Source of the DNA: Trametes villosa
Lineage: Eukaryota > Basidiomycota > Agaricomycetes > Polyporales > Polyporaceae
DNA: 64,000 nucleotides
Direction: 5' to 3'
NCBI GenBank assembly: GCA_002964805.2
Contig: PUDQ02000125.1
Location: 82,117 to 146,116, forward strand
The notes under the pieces are model-generated. The model saw only the letters and a program-made list of their open reading frames with translations. It ran no database searches and was not told the origin of the DNA. Positions 21,219 to 64,000 of this stretch are shown one piece after another; the stretch's first letter is position 1; each line of letters opens with the position of its first letter. A program made the translations under genes and the position numbers.

Positions 21219-21634
21219 TTTCAAGGTTAGGCGGCGTGCGGTATGCGAGCGGGACGCGAGCTATCGCGCGGCGGTCAGATCTCACACGGCTCGGGGGATG
21301 AACGTGTGACATGTATTGAGTACTAACCTATCGCGCGGCGGTCAGATCTGCGCGATAGGGTCAGTGTCTAGCGTAGGCGACGAGAAATAGAATGAGCTCA
21401 CCTCACACGGCTCGGGGGATGAACGTGTGAGGTGAGCGGGGCCGCGCGCGAGCGCGGTATGCCCGAATTTTTGTGAGTAAACAAAGCCAAACAGCCCGCC
21501 TCCCGCCGGCGCCTTTCCTCCACCCGCGCGCGTCCTCGACGCGCGCGGCGCGCGCTCTCCCTCGCGCCCTTTGCCTAATCCATCAGCGGCCGCGCCTTGC
21601 ACGGCCGCTCCCTTCGTCCTCCGAATCCTCAACA
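21219..21634 (-). repeat. 3' LTR of Copia element 1
   Basis: 416 bp, reads as identical to 26262-26677. It holds internal repeats: tatcgcgcggcggtcagatc twice, and a hairpin unit (cacacg, ggctcggggg..., cgtgtg) twice, the second extended to a 13-bp perfect stem CTCACCTCACACG / CGTGTGAGGTGAG. Confidence 0.95.
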
Positions 21635-21641
21635 CGCCCCC

Positions 21642-24600
21642 TCAAAGGGCGAGCAGCCCAAAGAGCGCGCAGAGGTGGTCCAAACGGCGTCGCGGCAGCG
21701 CCTTCGTGAACAAGTCCGCAGGCATGTCTTCGGTGCGTCGGTACCCGAGGTCGACCTCCTCCCGCTCCACGGCCTCCCGAATGAAGTGGTAGCGGATGGC
21801 TATGTGCTTCGTGCGCGCGTGGAACGCGTTGTTCCGCGCCAGGTCCATCGCGCTCCGGTTGTCGCTGTAGAGGCGTACTGCGTGAGTTGCGAAGTCCGGG
21901 TGCACGAGGTCGCCTAGGAGTGCGCGAAGCCAGATCGCCTCCTTCGCGGCGTGCGTGATACCGATGTACTCGGCCTCGGTGGACGACAGCGCTACGACAC
22001 TTTGCTTCTTTGCGGACCACGAGACAGCTCCGCCGTCGAACGCGAACACGTACCCGCAGACCGAGTGACGCGCGTCGTCGCTCGTGCCCCAGTCCGCGTC
22101 CGTGTACCCCGCGAGCCCGGTGTTGTCGCGTCCGTAGGTGAGCCAGAGTTCGCGCGTCCCTATGAGATACCGGACGAGGCGCTTCAGTGCCTCCCAATGA
22201 GGGCGTCCGGGGTTCGACATGTACTGGGCGAGTCGGTGCACGGTGTAGGCAATGTCGGGGCGGGTGGTCACGGCGATGTACATGCACATGCCCACCCCTT
22301 CGCGGTACGGGATCCCGCTCATGTCGGCGATGGCGGTCGCGGTCGTCGGGCACTGGGTTCTGTTGAGGACGCCTCCGACGGCGATCGGCGTGCTTGCCGG
22401 CTTCGCCCCCTCAAGGTTGAGGGTACGCACGAGCGTGTCGATGGCCGAGCGTTGGGCAAGGCGCACGGTGCCGGCGTCCTTGTCGCGCACGACCTCGATG
22501 CCCAGGAGCCACGCGACTTCGCCTGCGTCGGTAACCGTGAACTGCGTCTTGATGCCCTGGCGGAACTGTTCGACGAGGTCGGGCGTCCCAGTGACGAGCA
22601 TGTCGTCCACGATTGTGCCCACCATGACGAGCGAGTCCCCTTCGTGACGCCAGAAGCAGGCGTGATCGGATTCGCTGCGAGTCATGTCCAGCGAGCTCAT
22701 CGCGTCACGATACGTCTTGTACCACGCTCTCCCTGCCTGTTTCAGTCCATACAAGGACTTCCGCAGGCGGCAAACGAGATGCTCTTCCCCCGGTGCTGCC
22801 GTGCCCGGGGGTTGGCGCATATAGATCTCTTCATCAAGATCTCCGTTAAGATATGCGCTCTTTACGTCGAGTTGAATCAACGGCCACCCGAAGCGGGCGG
22901 CCAGCGCGATCATCGTTCGGAGAGAGCTTGACTTCGCGACTGGAGCGAAGGTCTCGGTGTAGTCAACGCCTGGGATCTGAGCGAATCCCTGCGCAACAAC
23001 TCGGACCTTGCACTGCTTGACGGCGCCATCGGCGTCGCGCTTTCTGTGAAAGACCAGTTTGCTGCCGATGACGTGCGCGCCGTCGGGCCGTACGACTAGG
23101 TCATACGTTCCGTGGGCGCGCAGGTTCTCCACCTCAGCTGCGATTGCCTTCTCCCACTGCGGCCAGTCAGGCGCTGCCTGAGCCTCACGCAGGGTTTTGG
23201 GGTCGCCACTGAGTGGATCACCCCCAGCCTGGGCGACGAACGAGTACGCTGTCGCCCCCCAGTCTCGAGACATGTCCGGGGTGTAACACTCACCGGCCTC
23301 GTTGTCTGCATCCTCTGCGTGCGTCTCGAGCGCGACTAGGGCGCCCATGACTTCGCTGACCATGCTCGCTCTCTGCTGGTCTCCTCCTGCGGCCTCCTGG
23401 ACGAGCCGTGCCTTGAGCGACGGTTTCTTGATGCGGTGACCGCGCCCAAGCGATTGCGCTGGCGGGGCTTGCTCTACGACCTCGCCTTCGGGTTCGTCTG
23501 CGGCGCGCTCGTCGCCCCCGTCCTCGTCTGCTCCGGTCCCGCGCTCGTCCTCGTCTGCTCCGGTCTCGTGCTCATTGTCCTCGCCTGCGTCTCCGTCCTC
23601 GACTGCCTCCGCCTGTCTCGCTCCGCCCTCGCGTTCGTCGCCTACGTCGCGAGTGTCGTCGGACTCGCCGTCCGATACCTCCACCTCTTCCTCAGCGCTC
23701 GCCCCCTCACTCGCGGACGTCGGCGACTCGTCGGCGCGATCCGCCCCCTCGCTCGCGACCGCCTCTGGCTCGTCCGCCCACACGTAGTTGCGCACGATCG
23801 TCACGGTGTGCTTCTCCGGCCAGTAGGCGTAGACGCCGTCGCGGTGGTTGTCGCTGAACCCGACGAACCTCGCGGGCACGCCGCGCGGGTCGAGCTTGCG
23901 GCTCTTCTCCGGCTTGACCCAGATCCGCGCGCCCCACGGTCGGAGGTGGCGTATGTCCGGCGGCGAGCCGAACCTGGCTTCGTAAGGAGTCATGCCATCG
24001 AGCTTCGAGTGGCCCGTCCTGTTGTGTACGTAGACGGAATGCTTGTAGGCGTGTACCCAAAGCGTCTTCGGGAGGTCCGCGTCGAGCAGCATCGCGCTGA
24101 CGCGTTCGCGATGCACGCGGTGCGCGCGTTCCGCGACGCCGTTTTGTTCGGGGGTGTGCGGAACCGAGGCGCTCCAATGAGTCCCGCGTGATGCGAGGTG
24201 CGTCTTCAGTGCGATGAACTCGCCTCCATTGTCGCTGTGGAGCCATTTCACCTGGTTGCCCGTCTGCGTCAGGATGGCCGCCTCGAGGTCCTTGTACGCC
24301 TGTGTCGTCTCCGTGACTGACTTTCCGGGGTACACGTGGTGCAGGCGCGTCTTGTCGTCGACGAATAAGACGGTCTTGGTGTTGCCGCCGAGCGATGTCC
24401 AGTCGGCGTCCCAGGTGTCGGAGTGTAGCTTGTCCCCGTACTCCTCGATCGGGATGTCGTGCGGGGCCGGGTGCGCCTCTCCGGGGATCGCCTTCCGCGT
24501 GAGTTTCGCGCGTACGCACACCTCGCACGTCGGGTCTTCGTCGCTCGCCTTCACGATCTTGACCCCCGTGGCGCGCCCCTTCTCGACAAGTTCGCGCGCT

Positions 24601-26198
24601 GCCTTGAGGGAGACGTGCGCGAGGCACCGGTGGAGCTCGAACGGCGTCACTTCGAGGACGCGCTTGCTGCCGGGGCATGAGGATGCGCTCAAGGCGGCGT
24701 CTGAGCTTGCGGCGACATCGGCCTCGACGTACCGGCTGACTACTTGATAGAGCCCGGCCGTGAGTGGGATGCGCGCGATGTCTGTCTCGCTCGCGCGCTC
24801 GTACATCCGGCATTCGCCCTGTTCGAACACCGTTGTGTAGCCGTTCTCGTCCGCCTTGCGAATGGACACCAGAGCGAACGCGACCGCGGGCGAGTAGAGC
24901 ACGTTGCGCAGCGTGAGCGCGCGGGTGGTCGCGCCGTTCGGAACCACGAGCTCGACGTCTCCTTGTCCGATCGCCAGGAATTCATCGCCGTTCGCGGCGG
25001 TGATGGCCCGCGGCGGCGTGAGCTCCGTGTACGTCACGAAGCGCTCCCGGTACGGGGATATGTGCGCGCTGGCACCGCTGTCGAAGACGTCGACGTAGAG
25101 GCCGGGCGCGGCGGCGAGTGCGCTCGTGACCGTGTTGCCCAGAGCCACGAACCCGTGATGCTTCTCGGCGGCTGCATTCGCGTTCGCGGTCGCCGTGTCG
25201 CCGTCCTTGCTCTGCTTCGCGTTGGGCCATGGCTGCCCTTCGCGTCCCCCTCCCTTCCGCCTACAGTTCCGGGCGATGTGCCCCTTGCCGTGGCAGTTGT
25301 AACACTCCACCGGCCCGCGCGCGTAGAGCGCGCTCGGGTTAGCGCCGGCTCCGGTGTTCGAGATCGCGGCGCCACTGAGTGCAGCCGCGAGCGCTGTGTC
25401 GTTCGCCTTGTTGATCGCCCGGCGGTCGTATTCCTCGTTCAGCTTGTTCATGAGGAAGTCGATGGGGATGGTCTGCCCGGAGATGCTCGAGATGTCCAGG
25501 ATCATCTGGACGCGGGCGTGGTAGGACTCCGGTAGGCTGTTGGTGACGATCGCCGCGAACTCCGAGTCGGAGAGGCGGGTTCCCACCGCTGCCAGGTTTT
25601 GCCGCTCGCGGAGCAGCAGCGCAAGGTGCGCTCGGACGTCGCCGCCCTCGGGGCATCGAGTGTTTTGGATCCGCGTGCGGATCGCGTTCGCGTACATCAG
25701 CGACTTGTTCTCGCAGGACGCAACGACGGCCTCCCAGAGGGCCTTCGCGGTCGGCTGGGACTGCACCTCGATGAACAGCTCGTCGGAGAGCGTCTCGTAG
25801 ATCAGCGCGCGCGCGCCCGCCTCCTTCGTCTCCCACGCGGTGTACTTCGCATCCATCTTGTCCACCAGCTCCGCGTACTCGTCGTCCGTGAGGTGCGAGT
25901 ACTCGTCCGTTTCGACCGTGGCTTGGCTGGACTTGGGAAGGTCCTTCTCGGCGTCGGCGTCATCAGGCTGAGTGGTCGAGACGGGCTTGGGAGTCGGAGC
26001 GGGGGGAACGTGGGGGAGATCTCGATCGACAGGGGGGGGAAGGGGCGGCTGGCGGCTGGTTCCTCTGATGTGGGGCATGTGCCCCTTGGCTGCCTGGACT
26101 GCCTTCATCCGTTCTCGGTAGGTGACCCAGTTGGATCCATCAGACGCTAGCTTCGGCACGCTATACTTGGACGAATTGATTGATGTTTCGTACGACAT
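21642..26198 (-). CDS. Copia polyprotein (Gag-Pro-Int-RT-RNaseH), element 1
   Basis: 1518 residues from the ATG at 26198; the open frame extends 23 codons upstream to the LTR without an ATG. Approximate residues: copia-type Gag to ~290; zinc knuckle CYNCHGKGHIARNC (~300-313); aspartic protease DSGASAHIS (~372); pre-integrase HHCC region (~519-561, CEVC); integrase with catalytic residues in HSDTW (~591), HSDNGGEF (~654) and GVAERAH (~687); an acidic, Glu/Asp-rich linker (~800-900); reverse transcriptase with TETFAPVAK and the active site read as IVDDM (~1195), where YVDD is usual; RNase H with TDADW (~1366), SSTEAEY (~1407) and SDN (~1446). All catalytic residues are present and the frame is unbroken, so the element may be autonomous. 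Gag and Pol are in one frame. Confidence 0.95.
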   Translation of the reverse strand: MSYETSINSSKYSVPKLASDGSNWVTYRERMKAVQAAKGHMPHIRGTSRQPPLPPPVDRDLPHVPPAPTPKPVSTTQPDDADAEKDLPKSSQATVETDEYSHLTDDEYAELVDKMDAKYTAWETKEAGARALIYETLSDELFIEVQSQPTAKALWEAVVASCENKSLMYANAIRTRIQNTRCPEGGDVRAHLALLLRERQNLAAVGTRLSDSEFAAIVTNSLPESYHARVQMILDISSISGQTIPIDFLMNKLNEEYDRRAINKANDTALAAALSGAAISNTGAGANPSALYARGPVECYNCHGKGHIARNCRRKGGGREGQPWPNAKQSKDGDTATANANAAAEKHHGFVALGNTVTSALAAAPGLYVDVFDSGASAHISPYRERFVTYTELTPPRAITAANGDEFLAIGQGDVELVVPNGATTRALTLRNVLYSPAVAFALVSIRKADENGYTTVFEQGECRMYERASETDIARIPLTAGLYQVVSRYVEADVAASSDAALSASSCPGSKRVLEVTPFELHRCLAHVSLKAARELVEKGRATGVKIVKASDEDPTCEVCVRAKLTRKAIPGEAHPAPHDIPIEEYGDKLHSDTWDADWTSLGGNTKTVLFVDDKTRLHHVYPGKSVTETTQAYKDLEAAILTQTGNQVKWLHSDNGGEFIALKTHLASRGTHWSASVPHTPEQNGVAERAHRVHRERVSAMLLDADLPKTLWVHAYKHSVYVHNRTGHSKLDGMTPYEARFGSPPDIRHLRPWGARIWVKPEKSRKLDPRGVPARFVGFSDNHRDGVYAYWPEKHTVTIVRNYVWADEPEAVASEGADRADESPTSASEGASAEEEVEVSDGESDDTRDVGDEREGGARQAEAVEDGDAGEDNEHETGADEDERGTGADEDGGDERAADEPEGEVVEQAPPAQSLGRGHRIKKPSLKARLVQEAAGGDQQRASMVSEVMGALVALETHAEDADNEAGECYTPDMSRDWGATAYSFVAQAGGDPLSGDPKTLREAQAAPDWPQWEKAIAAEVENLRAHGTYDLVVRPDGAHVIGSKLVFHRKRDADGAVKQCKVRVVAQGFAQIPGVDYTETFAPVAKSSSLRTMIALAARFGWPLIQLDVKSAYLNGDLDEEIYMRQPPGTAAPGEEHLVCRLRKSLYGLKQAGRAWYKTYRDAMSSLDMTRSESDHACFWRHEGDSLVMVGTIVDDMLVTGTPDLVEQFRQGIKTQFTVTDAGEVAWLLGIEVVRDKDAGTVRLAQRSAIDTLVRTLNLEGAKPASTPIAVGGVLNRTQCPTTATAIADMSGIPYREGVGMCMYIAVTTRPDIAYTVHRLAQYMSNPGRPHWEALKRLVRYLIGTRELWLTYGRDNTGLAGYTDADWGTSDDARHSVCGYVFAFDGGAVSWSAKKQSVVALSSTEAEYIGITHAAKEAIWLRALLGDLVHPDFATHAVRLYSDNRSAMDLARNNAFHARTKHIAIRYHFIREAVEREEVDLGYRRTEDMPADLFTKALPRRRLDHLCALFGLLAL

Positions 26199-26246
26199 CG
26201 TTGCTGTGGTTCTCCGGGGTTTCTTTTTGGGTTCTACTGCTCGGAA

Positions 26247-26261
26247 GCAGGGCTCATAACC
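26247..26261 (-). promoter_or_regulatory. Primer-binding site for an initiator-Met tRNA 5' half (Copia 1)
   Basis: The plus strand reads gcagggctcataacc directly next to the 5' LTR. This equals the anticodon stem-loop of fungal initiator tRNA-Met (CAU anticodon inside). The element RNA would pair with an internal cut end of that tRNA, not its 3' CCA end, as known for Drosophila copia and yeast Ty5. Confidence 0.8.
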
Positions 26262-26677
26262 TTTCAAGGTTAGGCGGCGTGCGGTATGCGAGCGGGACGC
26301 GAGCTATCGCGCGGCGGTCAGATCTCACACGGCTCGGGGGATGAACGTGTGACATGTATTGAGTACTAACCTATCGCGCGGCGGTCAGATCTGCGCGATA
26401 GGGTCAGTGTCTAGCGTAGGCGACGAGAAATAGAATGAGCTCACCTCACACGGCTCGGGGGATGAACGTGTGAGGTGAGCGGGGCCGCGCGCGAGCGCGG
26501 TATGCCCGAATTTTTGTGAGTAAACAAAGCCAAACAGCCCGCCTCCCGCCGGCGCCTTTCCTCCACCCGCGCGCGTCCTCGACGCGCGCGGCGCGCGCTC
26601 TCCCTCGCGCCCTTTGCCTAATCCATCAGCGGCCGCGCCTTGCACGGCCGCTCCCTTCGTCCTCCGAATCCTCAACA
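26262..26677 (-). repeat. 5' LTR of Copia element 1
   Basis: 416 bp, same sequence as 21219-21634. It carries the promoter in element orientation; I could not fix a TATA box with confidence. Confidence 0.95.
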
Positions 26678-57859: not shown

Positions 57860-58387
57860 ATGCCGAAGCAACGGGGCGGCTCTTCTCGCAAGATTATCAT
57901 CGGGGGCCCTGGAATCGGTGGGGTCTCACAGCCACACTTGCCGCCGGCGTTGCGGTCCATCGGCGAGAAAACGTACAACCTACGGGATATCGCCCAAGAA
58001 AAGCGCAAAGCTGCCTCCCGGGTCGCTGAGATGCAGCAAGGTTCGCACTGCTATCCTACGCGCGAGCTCCTACTCATAACACACCGCAGCCTTGAGTGCG
58101 GAGGCTCGGCGCGGACTCGCGGAGATACGCGGGGAGGAGCCGCCGGAGTCCTTTGAATCACAAGTACAGGACGTCCTGATGGGTGGCGGGGACAATGACG
58201 ACAGCGCAGATTGGGAGGATGAGCCTGGGCCGATGGACACAGCCCCCATCACCCATGCTATCCGCGACATCCTCCAGGAACGGTGAGGACGGTTCCGCCC
58301 ACTCGGCAAACCGCTGACCAACTCACATACGTTACCCCGCAGAGTCGGATACCGCCGCAACCGCGATAACCGCACCTGGGGGCAGAG
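57860..58387 (+). pseudogene. KDZ transposase-like gene, 5' end only, cut by Gypsy insertion
   Basis: Exons 57860-58040, 58090-58282 and 58343-58387, with introns of 49 and 60 bp. The protein begins MPKQRGGSSRKIIIGGPGIG and continues with EARRGLAEIRGEEPPESFES, an acidic patch (DNDDSADWEDEPGPMD) and the start of the typical basic turn RRNRDNRTWGQS. The layout (basic start, helical linker, acidic patch, then R..RDxRTW) matches N-termini of the large Kyakuja-Dileera-Zisupton transposase genes of Agaricomycetes as I remember them; no catalytic part is present. The frame ends at 58387, where the LTR begins. The downstream remainder, if kept, would lie beyond the window. Confidence 0.5.
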
Positions 58388-58675
58388 TGTAAAACTCACG
58401 GGTGTCGGGCACTTCTGATGCCCGCAGTCTCCAAGTACTCTGGTCCGGGCTCTATTAGGGCTCGGCGTACTCGGGAGATGGTGGGGCAGTTGTAGAAGGC
58501 TGCCCTCACCAGACGCGCGGGCTCCGAATACCCGCGCGTCGTACGCGTCTATCTACTACATGATATCTACGCGATATCTTATCCTAGCGCAATTAGCGCT
58601 AGGTACTGACCGCGACATAGCGCAACTAGCGCTATGTCCTACAAGAACCCGTAACGACCGCGGAGGGTCGTTACA
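58388..58675 (-). repeat. 3' LTR of the Gypsy element
   Basis: The right edge is fixed by the polypurine tract and TGTAACGACCC start. The left edge is inferred from terminal symmetry and loss of the host exon. Contains perfect hairpins at 58583-58603 (8 bp arms), 58614-58638 (10 bp) and 58651-58674 (9 bp). Confidence 0.7.
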
Positions 58676-59146
58676 CTCTCCCCCTCTAGACCCGTTGTAC
58701 GGGTCTACAATAGAATATTATAATAAAAGGAACGACTGCTGATATTCGCAGTCATAGCACTATATGATACAAAGGGTTGCGCATAGTGCGTGCGCAACTC
58801 ATATATACAATGAGTCAGTGAGCCAAGTAGGCTCACATGGTGGTCACAGCAGTGCAGTGGGATATATACACGACTGCAGATAGTAGCAGTCATACCACTA
58901 CACTACCATGATATGGTAGTGTTTTTGTTTTTGGGGTTATTGATGCGCGCACCGTGGGGTGCGGCTATGTACATTAGTACCGCAGCTATGGCGGACGAAC
59001 CGATCAATTTTTGACGCAGATCGGTTGCGTTATGCCCGAGGAGACGATAATATCGTCTCCTACGGGGACTGCAAATATTTGCAGTCATACCGTCGTGGTA
59101 TACGACGAGTGCATGACGGATGCACTCGAAGATTGTGATTAGACAC
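58676..59146 (-). other. Gypsy 3' non-coding tail, hairpin-rich
   Basis: No ORF. Begins with the polypurine tract (58676-58687). Contains a run of hairpins, for example ACACTACC / GGTAGTGT near 58900-58922, GGAGACGAT / ATCGTCTCC near 59040-59060 and GACTGCAAA / TTTGCAGTC near 59070-59090. Confidence 0.8.
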
Positions 59147-61714
59147 CTACGCGGTGTTGTCGTGTGGCGATGACGGGGTGAGGGGGGAGGATCCCTGCTC
59201 ACCCGTCGCGTTCTCGCTCTCGTCGTGCCTGTCGCTAGTAGCGGCAGGCGGTTGGGAAGGCCCGGCGACAGGTGCCTCCTGCACGTCCTCCATCGCGCGA
59301 GCGGGGGAGTACGGCGGAGGTGGGACTCCGTCATCGGGATGGGTACCCGCCACTACGTGTGACGGGGTCGAGGCAATGCTCGACGGTTCGGCGACCGCAG
59401 TTATGGCGGTCGCGGCGGTGGTAGTGGACGCGTCGGTCATGTCGACGTCGTCGGTGGTAACGGCAGGCGCCTCGGGCGCCTGCGGGGGTGCTGGTGCGGG
59501 TGCGGGTGCTGGTGCGGGTGCGGGCGCGGGCGCAGGTGCGGGCGCGTTGGGGGGCGGTAGTGGGCCGCCTGTGGCGACTGGTCCCAAGTCCCGCGAGCTG
59601 GGCACGACTCCGACGTCGAGAGTCGAATTCGGGCCGCCATCCATTTGAGGCAGCAGCGACCGAAGGTCACGCCCGTTCCGCTCGTTGCGGCACAGTCTCG
59701 CGAGCGGCAGGAACCGCTCCGCAGCTGTCGGGGTAAGACCGCGCGCCGCAAACCAGCGCGCTAGATGGAACAACGTCGTGCTTGCGACGTCGTTGGGGTA
59801 GGGGCCCGGGTGGTAGCTAGTACCCACGGGGTACTGCCCCTGCTCTACCACGTAACGGTAGAGCCCCGGCACTGAGAACAGCCAGTGGGCGAGGGTCACC
59901 CAATGCCCTCGCGGTCCCAGTGGCGTGCCGCGCGGCAGCATCGCTCGAACGGCAACGTGGTACTCCACGCTGCGCGTCGTAGGAAGCCCATTTGGCTCCC
60001 GCTCCATCCACTGAGGGATACGGCGCTCATCGACGCCATACCAAGCCTGCCACACAGCAGGCGGGTCACTGAAGCTCGGCTGGTTTGGGGCCGGCGCCGT
60101 GCGCTGTGCACGCAGCTTCAGTTTGACCTCCCGCCACTCAGCGGGCGTCCGCTTGCGCGAGAGGGTCGACGACGGCGGCGGCAAGTGCGCCGTCGACGCG
60201 TGCTCGAGTCCAGGGGGAGTGTTTCCCCGGGAGTCGGCTCGTTGAACCGCCGCGATCAGCGGCGGCGGCGCCTCTCGACGCCACGACGACTGTAGCTGGT
60301 TGAGACCAGCCACTCCTGTGTACTCCGAACGGGAGTTCACTTGACCAATTAGGTCGCGGATGCGGTGAGCCGCCTCACCCGTATCACGGCGGGCAGCCAT
60401 GATGATGTTGTTGGCGTCCGCGACGGACACCGGCACGTAGTTGTACCAGTGCCCCGCGAGACGCGGGTCCGAGTCGGTGGGGAGGGCCAACAGGTGGTAC
60501 GGCCACCCGGGGACCCTCGCCACATCCGTCGCTGGTTGCGGCGGAGGTTGCGTGCCAAACGGCGCGCCCTGACCCGGAGCATGTGCCGGGCCAGTGTCGC
60601 GACGAGCACGACGATACCGGTTTCGAGAGACGAGTCTCTCGATCCGCCTCTCGTCGATGTCGTCGTCCTCGTCGCTCGTCGCGTTCTCCCAGTCCACCAT
60701 AGGGTGGTCCCGGTCCGCGGATGTCGACGAGGTCGGCATCGCCGTCGAGTTCGACGGTCCTGCCACATTTGGCGTCGTCATCTGCGACGCTCCAGTCCTC
60801 GATGGTCCTGCCCCGCTGGGCAGCGACACGATCGGCATCAAGCTGGGCCCAGCGGACGGCGCTGAGCTCCTTGATGTCGACGCGAACGACCTATCGTTCG
60901 CAGTATCCCTCCTCCGAGGGCTGAGTTCCCTCGGGTCGCGTCGTCGTTCGTCGCGCGGAGGCGACGCCCTCCTGTGCCGAGCCCGACTGAGCTCAGCCTC
61001 CAACTGCGAGCGCACCTCATCGCGCTCGCGCTCGTACTCGTCGCGCTCCTGGCGAGCGGCCTCGCGCTCGCTCCGGTATCTGTCCCGGATCGACTTCGTC
61101 TCGTCGACGAGCTCCTTCATCTTCTGGAGCTTCGCCTCGAGCTCCGCGATCCAATCGCGGCTCCTCCCCTCCTCCACCCTCTGGTGCTCCTCGAAGTGCC
61201 GCCAGAACCGCTGCTGCAGTTCTGACTGGACGCGCGTCTGCGCGTCCCGGAACGTCGAGTCTGACGCCGCCGAGTTGTAGTGGCGGACAAAGTCCGCGCA
61301 CACAGCGCAGTTGTCGCTGTGCGCGACCAACAAGTGTTGGCCCGCTACGGGCGCCCAGGTCATGCTCGAGAAGGGCATGAGGGGGATGCCACCAGTCTGT
61401 GGCATCGGCGCGCTCGAACTGGGCGCGCTCTGGAATGCAGGACCCGCTTGATGCGGGAACTGGAAGCCGCCGCCATACGGAAACCTGTAGGCGGGCATGC
61501 CCTGCGAGAAGGCATGCGGGAACTGCTGGGGGTGGGTTACCCCCGGCATGGACGAGAATGCGGGAGCTGCCGCTTGTTGCGGCAGCAGGAATTGCGAAGG
61601 TTGGGGGAAGGGGATGTTTTGTTGTTGAGGGGCCGCAGGTTGCGACCCCTGTTGCTCCGAGGCTTGCTGCCCGGAGCTGCTGGCTTGCGTGTTGTCTTGC
61701 GGGGCGTCGTTCAT
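59147..61714 (-). CDS. Extra ORF downstream of Gypsy integrase, 855 residues
   Basis: ATG at 61714, 247 nt after the pol stop. N-terminal ~130 residues are Gln/Pro/Ala-rich; a small CxxC..H motif follows (DNCAVCADFVRH); a charged coiled coil comes next (~150-245; KLQKMKELVDETKSIRD, then Arg/Glu-rich). A Ser/Arg tail follows, then a folded-looking region (~560-690; PPAVWQAWYGVDERRIPQW, GHWVTLAHWLFSVPGLYRY, LARWFAARGLTPTAAERFLP). An Ala-Pro run of about ten pairs is near 720-745, and the C-terminus is Pro/Thr/Asp-rich. It sits where env-like or accessory ORFs sit in some retroelements, but I see no signal peptide or membrane segment. The coiled coil is Gag-like in character only. It is likely an element gene because it lies between pol and the polypurine tract on the same strand and shares the hairpin pattern. 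Function unknown. Confidence 0.8.
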   Translation of the reverse strand: MNDAPQDNTQASSSGQQASEQQGSQPAAPQQQNIPFPQPSQFLLPQQAAAPAFSSMPGVTHPQQFPHAFSQGMPAYRFPYGGGFQFPHQAGPAFQSAPSSSAPMPQTGGIPLMPFSSMTWAPVAGQHLLVAHSDNCAVCADFVRHYNSAASDSTFRDAQTRVQSELQQRFWRHFEEHQRVEEGRSRDWIAELEAKLQKMKELVDETKSIRDRYRSEREAARQERDEYERERDEVRSQLEAELSRARHRRASPPRDERRRDPRELSPRRRDTANDRSFASTSRSSAPSAGPSLMPIVSLPSGAGPSRTGASQMTTPNVAGPSNSTAMPTSSTSADRDHPMVDWENATSDEDDDIDERRIERLVSRNRYRRARRDTGPAHAPGQGAPFGTQPPPQPATDVARVPGWPYHLLALPTDSDPRLAGHWYNYVPVSVADANNIIMAARRDTGEAAHRIRDLIGQVNSRSEYTGVAGLNQLQSSWRREAPPPLIAAVQRADSRGNTPPGLEHASTAHLPPPSSTLSRKRTPAEWREVKLKLRAQRTAPAPNQPSFSDPPAVWQAWYGVDERRIPQWMEREPNGLPTTRSVEYHVAVRAMLPRGTPLGPRGHWVTLAHWLFSVPGLYRYVVEQGQYPVGTSYHPGPYPNDVASTTLFHLARWFAARGLTPTAAERFLPLARLCRNERNGRDLRSLLPQMDGGPNSTLDVGVVPSSRDLGPVATGGPLPPPNAPAPAPAPAPAPAPAPAPAPPQAPEAPAVTTDDVDMTDASTTTAATAITAVAEPSSIASTPSHVVAGTHPDDGVPPPPYSPARAMEDVQEAPVAGPSQPPAATSDRHDESENATGEQGSSPLTPSSPHDNTA

Positions 61715-61961
61715 GGCGCGGGCGTCGTTGTTGGTGGTGGTGGTGAGGTGGCAGAGGTCGGTTATGACCCTGCACTCGCGAGGTCGCCGTCTTAAAGCGC
61801 CGGCGGAGTCCGAACGCGTCGGTGGCTGCCTCGCGCACGCGAGTCTGCACGTGACGTACTACTTCACGGTCACGCGCTCTCTGCGCGTGCTCTGTCCTTC
61901 ACCACGACTACTCACTCGGGTAGTCTTGACCACGAAGCGCATGTTGCGCTTCGTACATCCG

Positions 61962-64000
61962 CTAAGTCTTGGCGGATGTTTTCTTGGGCAACGCGCGCCA
62001 AGATGACACGCCCATTAGACGACAATACTCGTCTAATGCTACGAGCTCCTTACAGTGCTCGTAGGGCTCCCATGTATGGTCCCCCATCGTCCACCGCACG
62101 TGGAACTGGCACTTATTGCCATTCCACTCGTGGCCGATAATCTCTTCCACCAACCATTCGGTGGAGTCTTCATTGCCGAAGTCGTAATACGACTTCGCCT
62201 CACGATGCGGGAATACCGCATCGTCGTTTGGCTCATAGCATCGTAATAGCGACGCGTGGAACCGAGGGTGTATCCTTCGGTTCCGGAGTTCTTCTGGTAA
62301 CTCCAGTACGTAGTTTGACGTACTGGGTATGCTCTCAATTATAGCATACGGTCCGATGTACTTAGGCACGAGTTTTCGTGCCCGGCCCTTAGGTATCGAC
62401 AAATTCTTTGTCGATAGGTATACCTTGTCCCCGACCTCAAAGTCGGGTTCGGCTTGCCTATGCTTATTCGCATAGTGTGTCTGGCGCACTCGCGCCTCGA
62501 TGATGGCATCATGCGCCATCTCCAGGTTCGCCTTGGCTCTGAGTGCGAACTCTCGCACTCCTCGAAACGGAGTGTCCGTTCCGATTCCGTTCATAGAACG
62601 CGGGAGATACCCGTAGTTCAACTCGAACGGAGCGAACCCTGTGGTAGAACTTACCGCAGAGTTGATAGCGAACTCCGCTATCGGTAGCTTCTCATACCAG
62701 TCCAACTGGTCAGGAGCTACCAGTGCACGGAGTATCTGCGACACTGAGCGTATACTACGCTCAGATAATCCATCCGTCTGTGGATGGAACGACGTGGACA
62801 TAAGCAGCTTCGCCCCCATAAGGCGATGCAGTTCCTTCCAGAACTTGGAAGTGAACTTCGAGTCTCTATCAGAGACTATGGAGTCCGGTAGCCCGTGTAG
62901 ACGGACTACTTCCCTGAAGTAGACCAGCGCCAGGTCTGACGCTGTGTCGGTTGTCTTGATGGGTATAAGGTGTACCATCGAGGTCAACCGACAGACTACA
63001 ATCCATATGTAGTCGTATCCGTGCGAGGGCGGAAACGGACCGAAGAAATCCATGGACATAGACGTCCATGGCACCGTAGGTATCGGTAGCGAGTGTAACA
63101 GCCCTATAGGGGGCTGTGTACTTATTTTCGTGGTGTGGCACACGCCGCACGAAATGCAGAACTTGTCTACATCCTTGCGTAACGCGGGCCACCAAAACCA
63201 CTTGCGCACGTACTCTGACGTGCGCTGAGGTCCAAGATGTCCAAGCGCGCTATGCGCTTGGTCTAACACGAGCTCCTGAAGGGCCCGTTTCCGATACAGG
63301 CCACGAGGTATACACAATACCTCGTCGCCTTCACGGTTCTTGGTGTATATCACACCCTCGCGCATTACGAATGCGCGATGCTGAGTAGGCCGTTCCAGTA
63401 TTTTCTGGAACGTCGGGTCATTACCATAACCTGACTTGACGGCTTTCAGGAAGCCGTCGTCTCCTTCTACCCAGACACGCAAAGAGGGACCCGCAGATAG
63501 CGAGTCCGACAGCGTCACATTGTCGCTGTCCGTGGCTGCTGCAGTCACCGAGATAGGTGCGTGTGCAGCGTAACGAGCCGACTCTACGACTCGTTCCTCT
63601 ATTGGTTCTTGCACGCGTGTAGCGTGCGCGTTGTCTGTCTCTAGCTGCGCGAGTTTCCGCGCAGATCGACGCAACACTCGAGCTGCGCGTAGCTCGATGA
63701 GTCGGGAGAAGGGGAGATCATCCCCTTCAGGGTCTAGCCGCAAGTCGGCGTTAACATAGTCGAAATCTTCGGCTAGTTCCTCTATGTCGTCATGTTCGAA
63801 GTAGCGGGACAAACAGTCCGCTACTTTGTTCAGTTTACCTGGAATATAGGTAATCGTCTTGTCGAACCTCGACAAGAATTCGTACCACCGTATCTGACGG
63901 TGGTTAGGACGCTCGAGTCCCTCAAGGAACTCGAGAGCTCTATGGTCGGTGACTATATTGAGCTTTCGTCCTATGAGCTTGTCCTCCCACTTGAACAAGC
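61962..64000 (-). CDS. Gypsy Pol, C-terminal part: RNase H end, integrase, chromodomain
   Basis: Open to the window edge, so the start is outside. Order: RNase H C-terminal part (IVTDHRALEFLE, RWYEFLSRFDKTITYIPGKL, ADCLSR); integrase zinc domain (HSALGHLGPQRT ... CISCGVC); catalytic core with D in MDFFGPFPPSHG, D in SDRDSKFTS and E in GLSERSI, 35 residues between the last two; then a C-terminal domain with the GDKVYLSTKNL pattern. A chromodomain follows near the end (VEEIIGHEWNG, FHVRWTMGDHTWEPYEHC), which directs integration to chromatin in chromoviruses. Stop at 61962. The catalytic triad is intact. Synonymous positions appear constrained by the inverted-repeat tiling. Confidence 0.93.
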   Translation of the reverse strand, partial: LFKWEDKLIGRKLNIVTDHRALEFLEGLERPNHRQIRWYEFLSRFDKTITYIPGKLNKVADCLSRYFEHDDIEELAEDFDYVNADLRLDPEGDDLPFSRLIELRAARVLRRSARKLAQLETDNAHATRVQEPIEERVVESARYAAHAPISVTAAATDSDNVTLSDSLSAGPSLRVWVEGDDGFLKAVKSGYGNDPTFQKILERPTQHRAFVMREGVIYTKNREGDEVLCIPRGLYRKRALQELVLDQAHSALGHLGPQRTSEYVRKWFWWPALRKDVDKFCISCGVCHTTKISTQPPIGLLHSLPIPTVPWTSMSMDFFGPFPPSHGYDYIWIVVCRLTSMVHLIPIKTTDTASDLALVYFREVVRLHGLPDSIVSDRDSKFTSKFWKELHRLMGAKLLMSTSFHPQTDGLSERSIRSVSQILRALVAPDQLDWYEKLPIAEFAINSAVSSTTGFAPFELNYGYLPRSMNGIGTDTPFRGVREFALRAKANLEMAHDAIIEARVRQTHYANKHRQAEPDFEVGDKVYLSTKNLSIPKGRARKLVPKYIGPYAIIESIPSTSNYVLELPEELRNRRIHPRFHASLLRCYEPNDDAVFPHREAKSYYDFGNEDSTEWLVEEIIGHEWNGNKCQFHVRWTMGDHTWEPYEHCKELVALDEYCRLMGVSSWRALPKKTSAKT

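Follow-up and report, generated by a model that had tools for sequence, protein, structure and literature searches.

Why should a retrotransposon be filled from end to end with short perfect inverted repeats? The question is raised by a 64,000-nucleotide stretch of contig PUDQ02000125.1 from the polypore Trametes villosa (hereafter the window), the 3' end of which is occupied by a minus-strand Ty3/Gypsy element, of which the 3' part is included. A sequence-only reading of the window had placed a hairpin-tiled element at 58583..63990. Such an element is indeed present, but matches of its long terminal repeat (LTR) in the genome (46.7 Mb in 140 contigs searched) put its start, the LTR end, at 58387, and the window and the contig both terminate within pol, leaving only the 3' part of the element in view. 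The answer that we favour, with moderate confidence, is that a clade of Ty3/Gypsy elements has been selected, in the course of the transposition cycle, for global folding into short local hairpins.

Extent and geometry of the hairpins

Hairpins were counted mainly as perfect inverted repeats with arms of at least 7 and loops of 3-16. The six 1-kb bins of 58001-64000 contain 6-17 such repeats per kb, as against 0.35-1.5 per kb in shuffled sequence, and the excess ends where the host flank begins. Elsewhere in the window, the remaining 58 bins of this size contain 0-3 each, save two with 8 and 7 that correspond to the flanking repeats of one Copia element. A greedy list with wider limits (arm at least 6, loop 3-20) comprises 107 hairpins in 58001-64000, whose spans make up 40% of 58583-63990. 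When compared with dinucleotide shuffles, the pol part at 61962-63998 has 33 hairpins versus 2.1 (51 versus 6.9 with arms of at least 6), the LTR 4 versus 0.1, the non-coding tail 8 versus 0.2 and ORF3, an additional open reading frame (ORF) downstream of pol, 23 versus 3.1. Enrichment is seen in all seven parts of the element that were measured, namely the LTR, tail, ORF3 and pol end and, from other copies, the 5' LTR with leader, gag and protease. The complete pol ORF of one such copy (L039) has 53 hairpins, while 60 synonymous-codon shuffles gave 3.9 +/- 2.0 and at most 8. The earlier statements that hairpins fill the LTR, tail, extra ORF and pol, and that at least 35 of them lie in about 2.0 kb of pol, far above chance, are therefore borne out, with an excess larger than first claimed, and the synonymous-shuffle comparison, named beforehand as the refuting test, leaves the observation standing. 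The accompanying claim that Copia elements lack the pattern holds for their coding regions and fails for the repeats on either side of the Copia ORF at 21642-26303, which carry several hairpins. These repeats (21282-21609 and 26325-26652, presumably LTRs) share the same hairpin set, with arms of up to 14, whereas the coding region between them is unstructured. Base composition was rejected as the cause, because the excess persists against dinucleotide and synonymous shuffles alike and the depletion of stem-breaking variants described below persists under CpG stratification.

Predicted folding energies were expressed as the mean folding-energy excess (MFED), using 250-base windows for parts of the element and 350-base fragments for the comparison with viruses. 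The seven parts of the element show an MFED of 19-55%, the host flank 1%, a host stretch -2% and two Copia coding regions 0 and 3%. In 350-base fragments the mean is 29% for the part in the window (range 9 to 61, n=27) and 32% for the 5' half of another copy (n=25). Read as antisense, the part in the window still reaches a mean of 27%, and in 120-base windows of the L039 pol the sense strand folds at -44.7 versus -31.6 kcal/mol in shuffles (z -29) and the antisense strand at -44.9 versus -31.9 kcal/mol (z -24). In a second structured family (family B; L039 belongs to family A) the gain is slightly larger on the sense strand (9.5 versus 8.0 kcal/mol per 120 bases).

Loops of 0-2 occur at chance in L039 (2 versus 2.3), those of 3-10 are 8.4-fold enriched (68 versus 8.1) and the excess is nearly gone beyond about 30. 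The number of pol arms (loops 3-12) declines from length 6 to 10-11, with none longer in families A, B and C. This loop and arm spectrum points to hairpins that can be formed by a single strand rather than to palindromes. Hairpins favour the reading-frame phases that leave more silent freedom (26, 17 and 28, versus shuffle counts of 61, 82 and 61). Palindromic protein-binding sites or cruciforms in double-stranded DNA would share the strand symmetry, and loops of 0-2 number 7 versus 3.3 in family C and 4 versus 2.9 in family D; however, they are not enriched in A or B, the listed hairpins have no common sequence as judged by eye and their positions turn over, which makes this explanation extremely improbable.

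Variation among copies

The family A alignment consists of 25 rows, with 24 copies compared to L039; stretches more than 12% diverged were masked, L010 was omitted as it represents the same place as L039, and L028 and L035 were excluded for their non-homologous flanks. Silent changes that would break a stem (arm at least 6) are observed at 43 of 825 possibilities, as opposed to 169 of 1499 for neutral ones (odds ratio (OR) 0.43, p 5.6e-7), with ORs of 0.41 and 0.43 at arms of at least 5 and at least 7. Silent variants private to one copy include 25 stem-breaking and 60 neutral changes, whereas those common to several copies include 18 stem-breaking changes, where about 60 are expected, and 109 neutral ones (private versus shared p 0.009). 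Private variants would mostly postdate insertion, while shared variants would have passed through transposition. Private silent transitions occur at the same rate in both classes (25/372 stem-breaking, 51/731 neutral), and this equality, taken with the depletion among shared variants, indicates that the filter operates mainly in the transposition cycle.

Of 57 stem places with arms of at least 7, 51 are found in half or more of the readable copies. Reference bias, which arises from defining stems on one copy, was removed by counting a stem found in any copy; under this union definition, stratified by base, change and CpG, 39 stem-breaking variants were seen versus 61 expected (OR 0.51, z -3.6), an effect that is weakened and still present. 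The non-coding tail and LTR were compared in 11 rows that include the window's own sequence (15 loci were tried, 4 had no match and L050, the window itself, was dropped). Here 9 variants fall in 288 stem sites versus 39 in 471 others (p 0.005; 0.02 at arms of at least 5), among shared variants 1 falls in stems versus 17 elsewhere, and the tail stems are conserved across the 11 copies. In family B, a pair of 92.5% identity has silent transitions at 12/196 stem sites versus 127/873 outside (p 0.0009); the L037 pol, its frame broken in the stretch taken, was left out of this test. Selection for a folded nucleic acid, proposed as one possible cause in the sequence-only reading, is thus supported by copy variation in both coding and non-coding parts, and the depletion of stem-breaking variants probably reflects such selection.

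In L039:2619-6161 and its copies, loops are more variable than stems at silent positions: silent transitions (arm at least 6) affect 40/155 sites in loops, 36/360 in stems and 124/661 outside both.

Two explanations would generate hairpins without selection on folding. The first, also raised at the outset, is that a strand-switching reverse transcriptase (RT) perfects quasi-palindromes by hairpin-templated correction. It would account for Watson-Crick pairing without a G.U preference, for the minimum loop of 3 and for the mixing of coding and non-coding stems, and a single hint in its favour comes from silent stem gains (18/104, OR 1.65, p 0.08 at arms of at least 6; 11/54, OR 2.1, p 0.04 at arms of at least 7). 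Nevertheless, changes are evenly distributed between the two arms in 8 comparisons (p 0.12 to 0.96), and stems show no clear surplus of amino-acid changes derived in A (14/267 codons versus 46/816; at arms of at least 6, 21/340 versus 36/722). Repair from either arm would further predict about 20 compensated pairs among A copies, since the shared stem-breaking variants fall short by about 42 (60 expected less 18) and about half of these would show; only 1 was found. Given, in addition, that other RT lineages of this genome show little or no pattern, templated correction fares poorly and is very unlikely. The second explanation is a mutational attractor, in which paired bases are shielded from mutation while single-stranded, so that stems are sticky and accumulate neutrally. 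The concentration of the depletion in shared variants, the near-neutral rate of silent gains, the high variation of loops and the lack of a wobble preference are all compatible with it. However, silent transversions are the most depleted class (1/453 stem-breaking versus 27/768), which shielding from deamination does not explain, and most other lineages are without the pattern; we regard it as quite unlikely.

Turnover and distribution among lineages

Between families A and B, pol identity is 76% at the protein level and 69% at the DNA level, and of 53 A hairpins no more than 3 survive intact in B. At 421 pairs of partner positions, 192 are unchanged, 190 changed on one side and 39 on both, approximately as expected under independence, and 19 of the 39 are still Watson-Crick. 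Predicted pairs common to both families amount to 108 of 1080 (about 10%; 7 expected from shifted controls), with 99 of them unchanged in sequence. The covariation of paired bases that the initial reading suggested looking for is consequently absent between A and B, and conserved specific RNA elements were rejected as an explanation. Since both families are highly folded and share few pairs, what is kept appears to be the global property, while its individual members change.

Across lineages, MFED was taken on pol ORFs relative to synonymous shuffles. The highest value, 42%, belongs to A; two B copies have 36% and 24%, C41 has 23%, L048 16% and D 10%, and values are weak in L045, L046, L047 and L049 (3-8%, z -1.5 to -3.9), E (2%) and F (3%). 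Among eight other ORFs (L001-L008), L003 has 11% (z -5.3) and the other seven lie between -2 and 6% (z 0.8 to -3.4). A tree that omits L004, and for which the program flagged long branches, groups A with B as sisters and likewise C41 with L048, the latter two inside a clade of which the four remaining members have little structure. One Gypsy clade thus carries the trait, unevenly, and this distribution suggests that the trait was gained or lost more than once, or that it decays. L003, from another clade, has 7 hairpins versus 2.1 along with its MFED of 11%, and its relatives L001, L002, L005 and L006 have about 5-6%; it is perhaps a second, independent start of the trait. The idea that successful elements of this genome are hairpin-tiled as a rule was rejected, as four further lineages picked from the list of genome RT matches (RT lineages, Gypsy or otherwise) have an MFED of -4.8 to 2.3%.

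Proposed explanation and its difficulties

We propose that the single-stranded nucleic acid of the element would fold along its whole length into Watson-Crick hairpins, with arms mostly of 6-10 and loops of 3-10. Individual hairpins would be interchangeable, being built largely by silent or non-coding changes on both arms, kept for a time and then replaced. Sense and antisense strands folded in this manner might anneal poorly with each other or with small RNAs and make poor templates for RNA-dependent RNA polymerase (RdRP), while their stems would not reach the length that Dicer can cut. In the host genome, Piwi domains are encoded at 4 places, RdRP domains at about 7 and RNase III domains at about 5 (rows grouped by eye, domains assigned by sequence). 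We tentatively suggest that the benefit is a shielding from sequence-specific host defence; protection from RNA interference (RNAi) would be the likeliest purpose. A fuller version, possible although doubtful, is that a strand-symmetric hairpin coat keeps sense transcripts, antisense transcripts and complementary DNA (cDNA) self-folded, blinding RNAi and other defences based on annealing, with lineages gaining and losing the trait as in an arms race.

Several observations weigh against selection for global folding within the transposition cycle. Private silent transversions are found at 0/453 stem-breaking possibilities versus 9/768 neutral ones, which misfits a filter confined to the cycle. 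The unstratified union test is weak at arms of at least 8 (p 0.09-0.10), and a closer family B pair (96.8%) shows the same direction as the more diverged one without reaching significance (p 0.14 to 0.33). Among the family A copies, stem-breaking variants that alter an amino acid show no depletion, a result that we read as mostly the noise of dead copies, and silent stem gains are not favoured by being shared (10 private versus 8 shared). Little structure is carried by L045 and L046, two relatives in which the pol frame is long and open, and hence the structure does not seem essential to the cycle. Finally, selection on the sense RNA alone should favour G.U pairs, a property of RNA helices, whereas shared silent changes in stems comprise 5 G.U versus 10 A.C (opportunities 193 and 191; private 15 versus 7), and near-perfect helices in A, B and C contain 23 G.U versus 27 A.C (17 versus 15 with at least 8 pairs).

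The want of a G.U preference may mean that both RNA strands matter, or single-stranded DNA, or that the numbers are too small. On balance we lean towards genomic RNA as the main folded molecule, with single-stranded cDNA or antisense RNA as alternatives. Selection on minus or plus single-stranded cDNA during reverse transcription, where hairpins might protect it or guide strand transfer, would be consistent with the strand-symmetric, Watson-Crick nature of stems with loops of at least 3 and with a filter acting mainly on shared variants. However, related lineages have little structure and Ty3 cDNA is not known to need dense hairpins, and the idea is unlikely to be correct. Alternatively, what is selected could be compactness of the genomic RNA, serving its dimerisation or its packaging into virus-like particles, and not evasion of defence. 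All measured parts are folded, including the LTR, and local hairpins would be expected to compact the RNA; yet there is no G.U preference, the antisense folds as strongly, and two other RT lineages with 12 and 14 equal-score matches do without structure, so that we rate compaction as a rather unlikely primary cause. The likelihoods expressed here overlap, as two of the alternatives include the selection step of the explanation that we favour.

Anatomy of the element and its copies

The left edge of the LTR is marked by genome matches of window 58001-58760, 38 of 40 of which begin at 58385-58391; 16 of these 38 end at 58675-58678, giving the right edge. The adjoining AGAGGGGGAGAG is presumably the polypurine tract. 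Other copies supply the parts missing from the window, namely the 5' LTR, gag with a zinc knuckle, protease, RT, RNase H and integrase. One copy, at C3:3930474-3940997, measures about 10.5 kb by its LTR positions, with LTR matches at both ends flanking the coding region, and its 5' LTR is 98.6% identical to the 3' LTR of the window. RVT_1, RT_RNaseH, Integrase_H2C2 and SH3_Tf2-1 score above their cut-offs and rve below (27.1 versus 32.6 bits), in the Gypsy order; zf-CCHC scores above its cut-off and three protease models match below theirs, with gag and protease preceding RT. As judged from its sequence, the element is a Ty3/Gypsy LTR retrotransposon with an added ORF3. About 23 further places in the genome encode the same pol, most of its length being matched at 95-100% identity. 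ORF3 (59147-61714) has no Pfam match; family B (L040, minus strand) has an ORF at the same place with a stretch that is similar when compared by eye (SLLVAH..FVRHY..FRDAQ..RFW..FQEHQR). The host flank 58001-58387 matches G000:C29:12309-12695 at 99%, a match that stops at the LTR boundary and could represent an allele, a duplication or an empty site.

Table 1. Features of the element in the window, with example hairpins
Feature	Position	Strand	Details
3' LTR	58387..58675	-	289 bp; sense start TGTAACGACC; 58% inside hairpin spans (arm at least 6) vs 6% in shuffles
Presumed polypurine tract	58676..58687	-	AGAGGGGGAGAG in sense; adjoins LTR; read directly, placed by LTR boundary
Non-coding tail, ORF3 to LTR	58676..59146	-	62% inside hairpin spans; 15 hairpins (arm at least 6) vs 2.0 shuffled; MFED 54%
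ORF3, downstream of pol	59147..61714	-	855 aa from first Met; 23 hairpins (arm at least 7) vs 3.1; MFED 19%
pol 3' part	61962..63998	-	End of RNase H, integrase zinc finger, integrase core, SH3-like end; open to window end; 33 hairpins (arm at least 7) vs 2.1; MFED 39%
Hairpin, LTR	58614..58638	.	Arms 10, loop 5
Hairpin, tail	58900..58922	.	Arms 10, loop 3
Hairpin, tail	59039..59061	.	Arms 10, loop 3
Hairpin, just past pol end	61932..61954	.	Arms 10, loop 3
Hairpin, within pol	62394..62416	.	Arms 10, loop 3
Hairpin, within pol	62744..62764	.	Arms 9, loop 3

Comparison with known systems

No work on the structure of retrotransposon genomes was found in the literature that pairs "genome-scale ordered RNA structure" with "retrotransposon", as seen in titles and the starts of abstracts, and novelty in print is not thereby established. 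The results suggest that structural constraint can act on synonymous and LTR sites of a retrotransposon, which would affect insertion dating and codon-based analyses. They also offer a natural experiment, outside animal infection, on how genome-scale ordered RNA structure (GORS) of viruses is linked to persistence: a stronger version of the property, many near-identical copies within one genome, structured and little-structured sister lineages, and a host with RNAi domains.

In its LTRs, polypurine tract, gag zinc knuckle, protease, RT, RNase H and integrase, arranged in the same order, the element resembles other Ty3/Gypsy elements (Metaviridae), from which it differs by the extra ORF of 855 aa after pol, without a Pfam match, and by the global tiling with hairpins. 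RNA structure matters also to the yeast LTR retrotransposon Ty1, for which PMC9784701 describes two stem-loops that form a kissing complex with a link to dimerisation and packaging; unlike this defined complex, the hairpin chain of the present element is interchangeable and genome-long.

The closest parallel is with GORS. PMC7642675 gives an MFED of 15% for SARS-CoV-2 and 23.4% as the highest mean for a vertebrate RNA virus, and calls the link of GORS to viral persistence as yet unexplained. The 29% and 32% of the element exceed the quoted 23.4%, with the proviso that shuffling, shuffle number and step differ from that source. As in GORS, folding energy lies above shuffled controls in both halves examined, positions and pair identities are poorly conserved between the structured relatives A and B, and paired sites are constrained among close relatives (in family B in 1 of 2 pairs). 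Unlike GORS, the carrier is an LTR retrotransposon and not a positive-strand RNA virus, no G.U preference is seen in the small numbers counted and the antisense is folded about as strongly. The element thus works like GORS, and is not filed as GORS because its carrier differs and the wobble counts are small.

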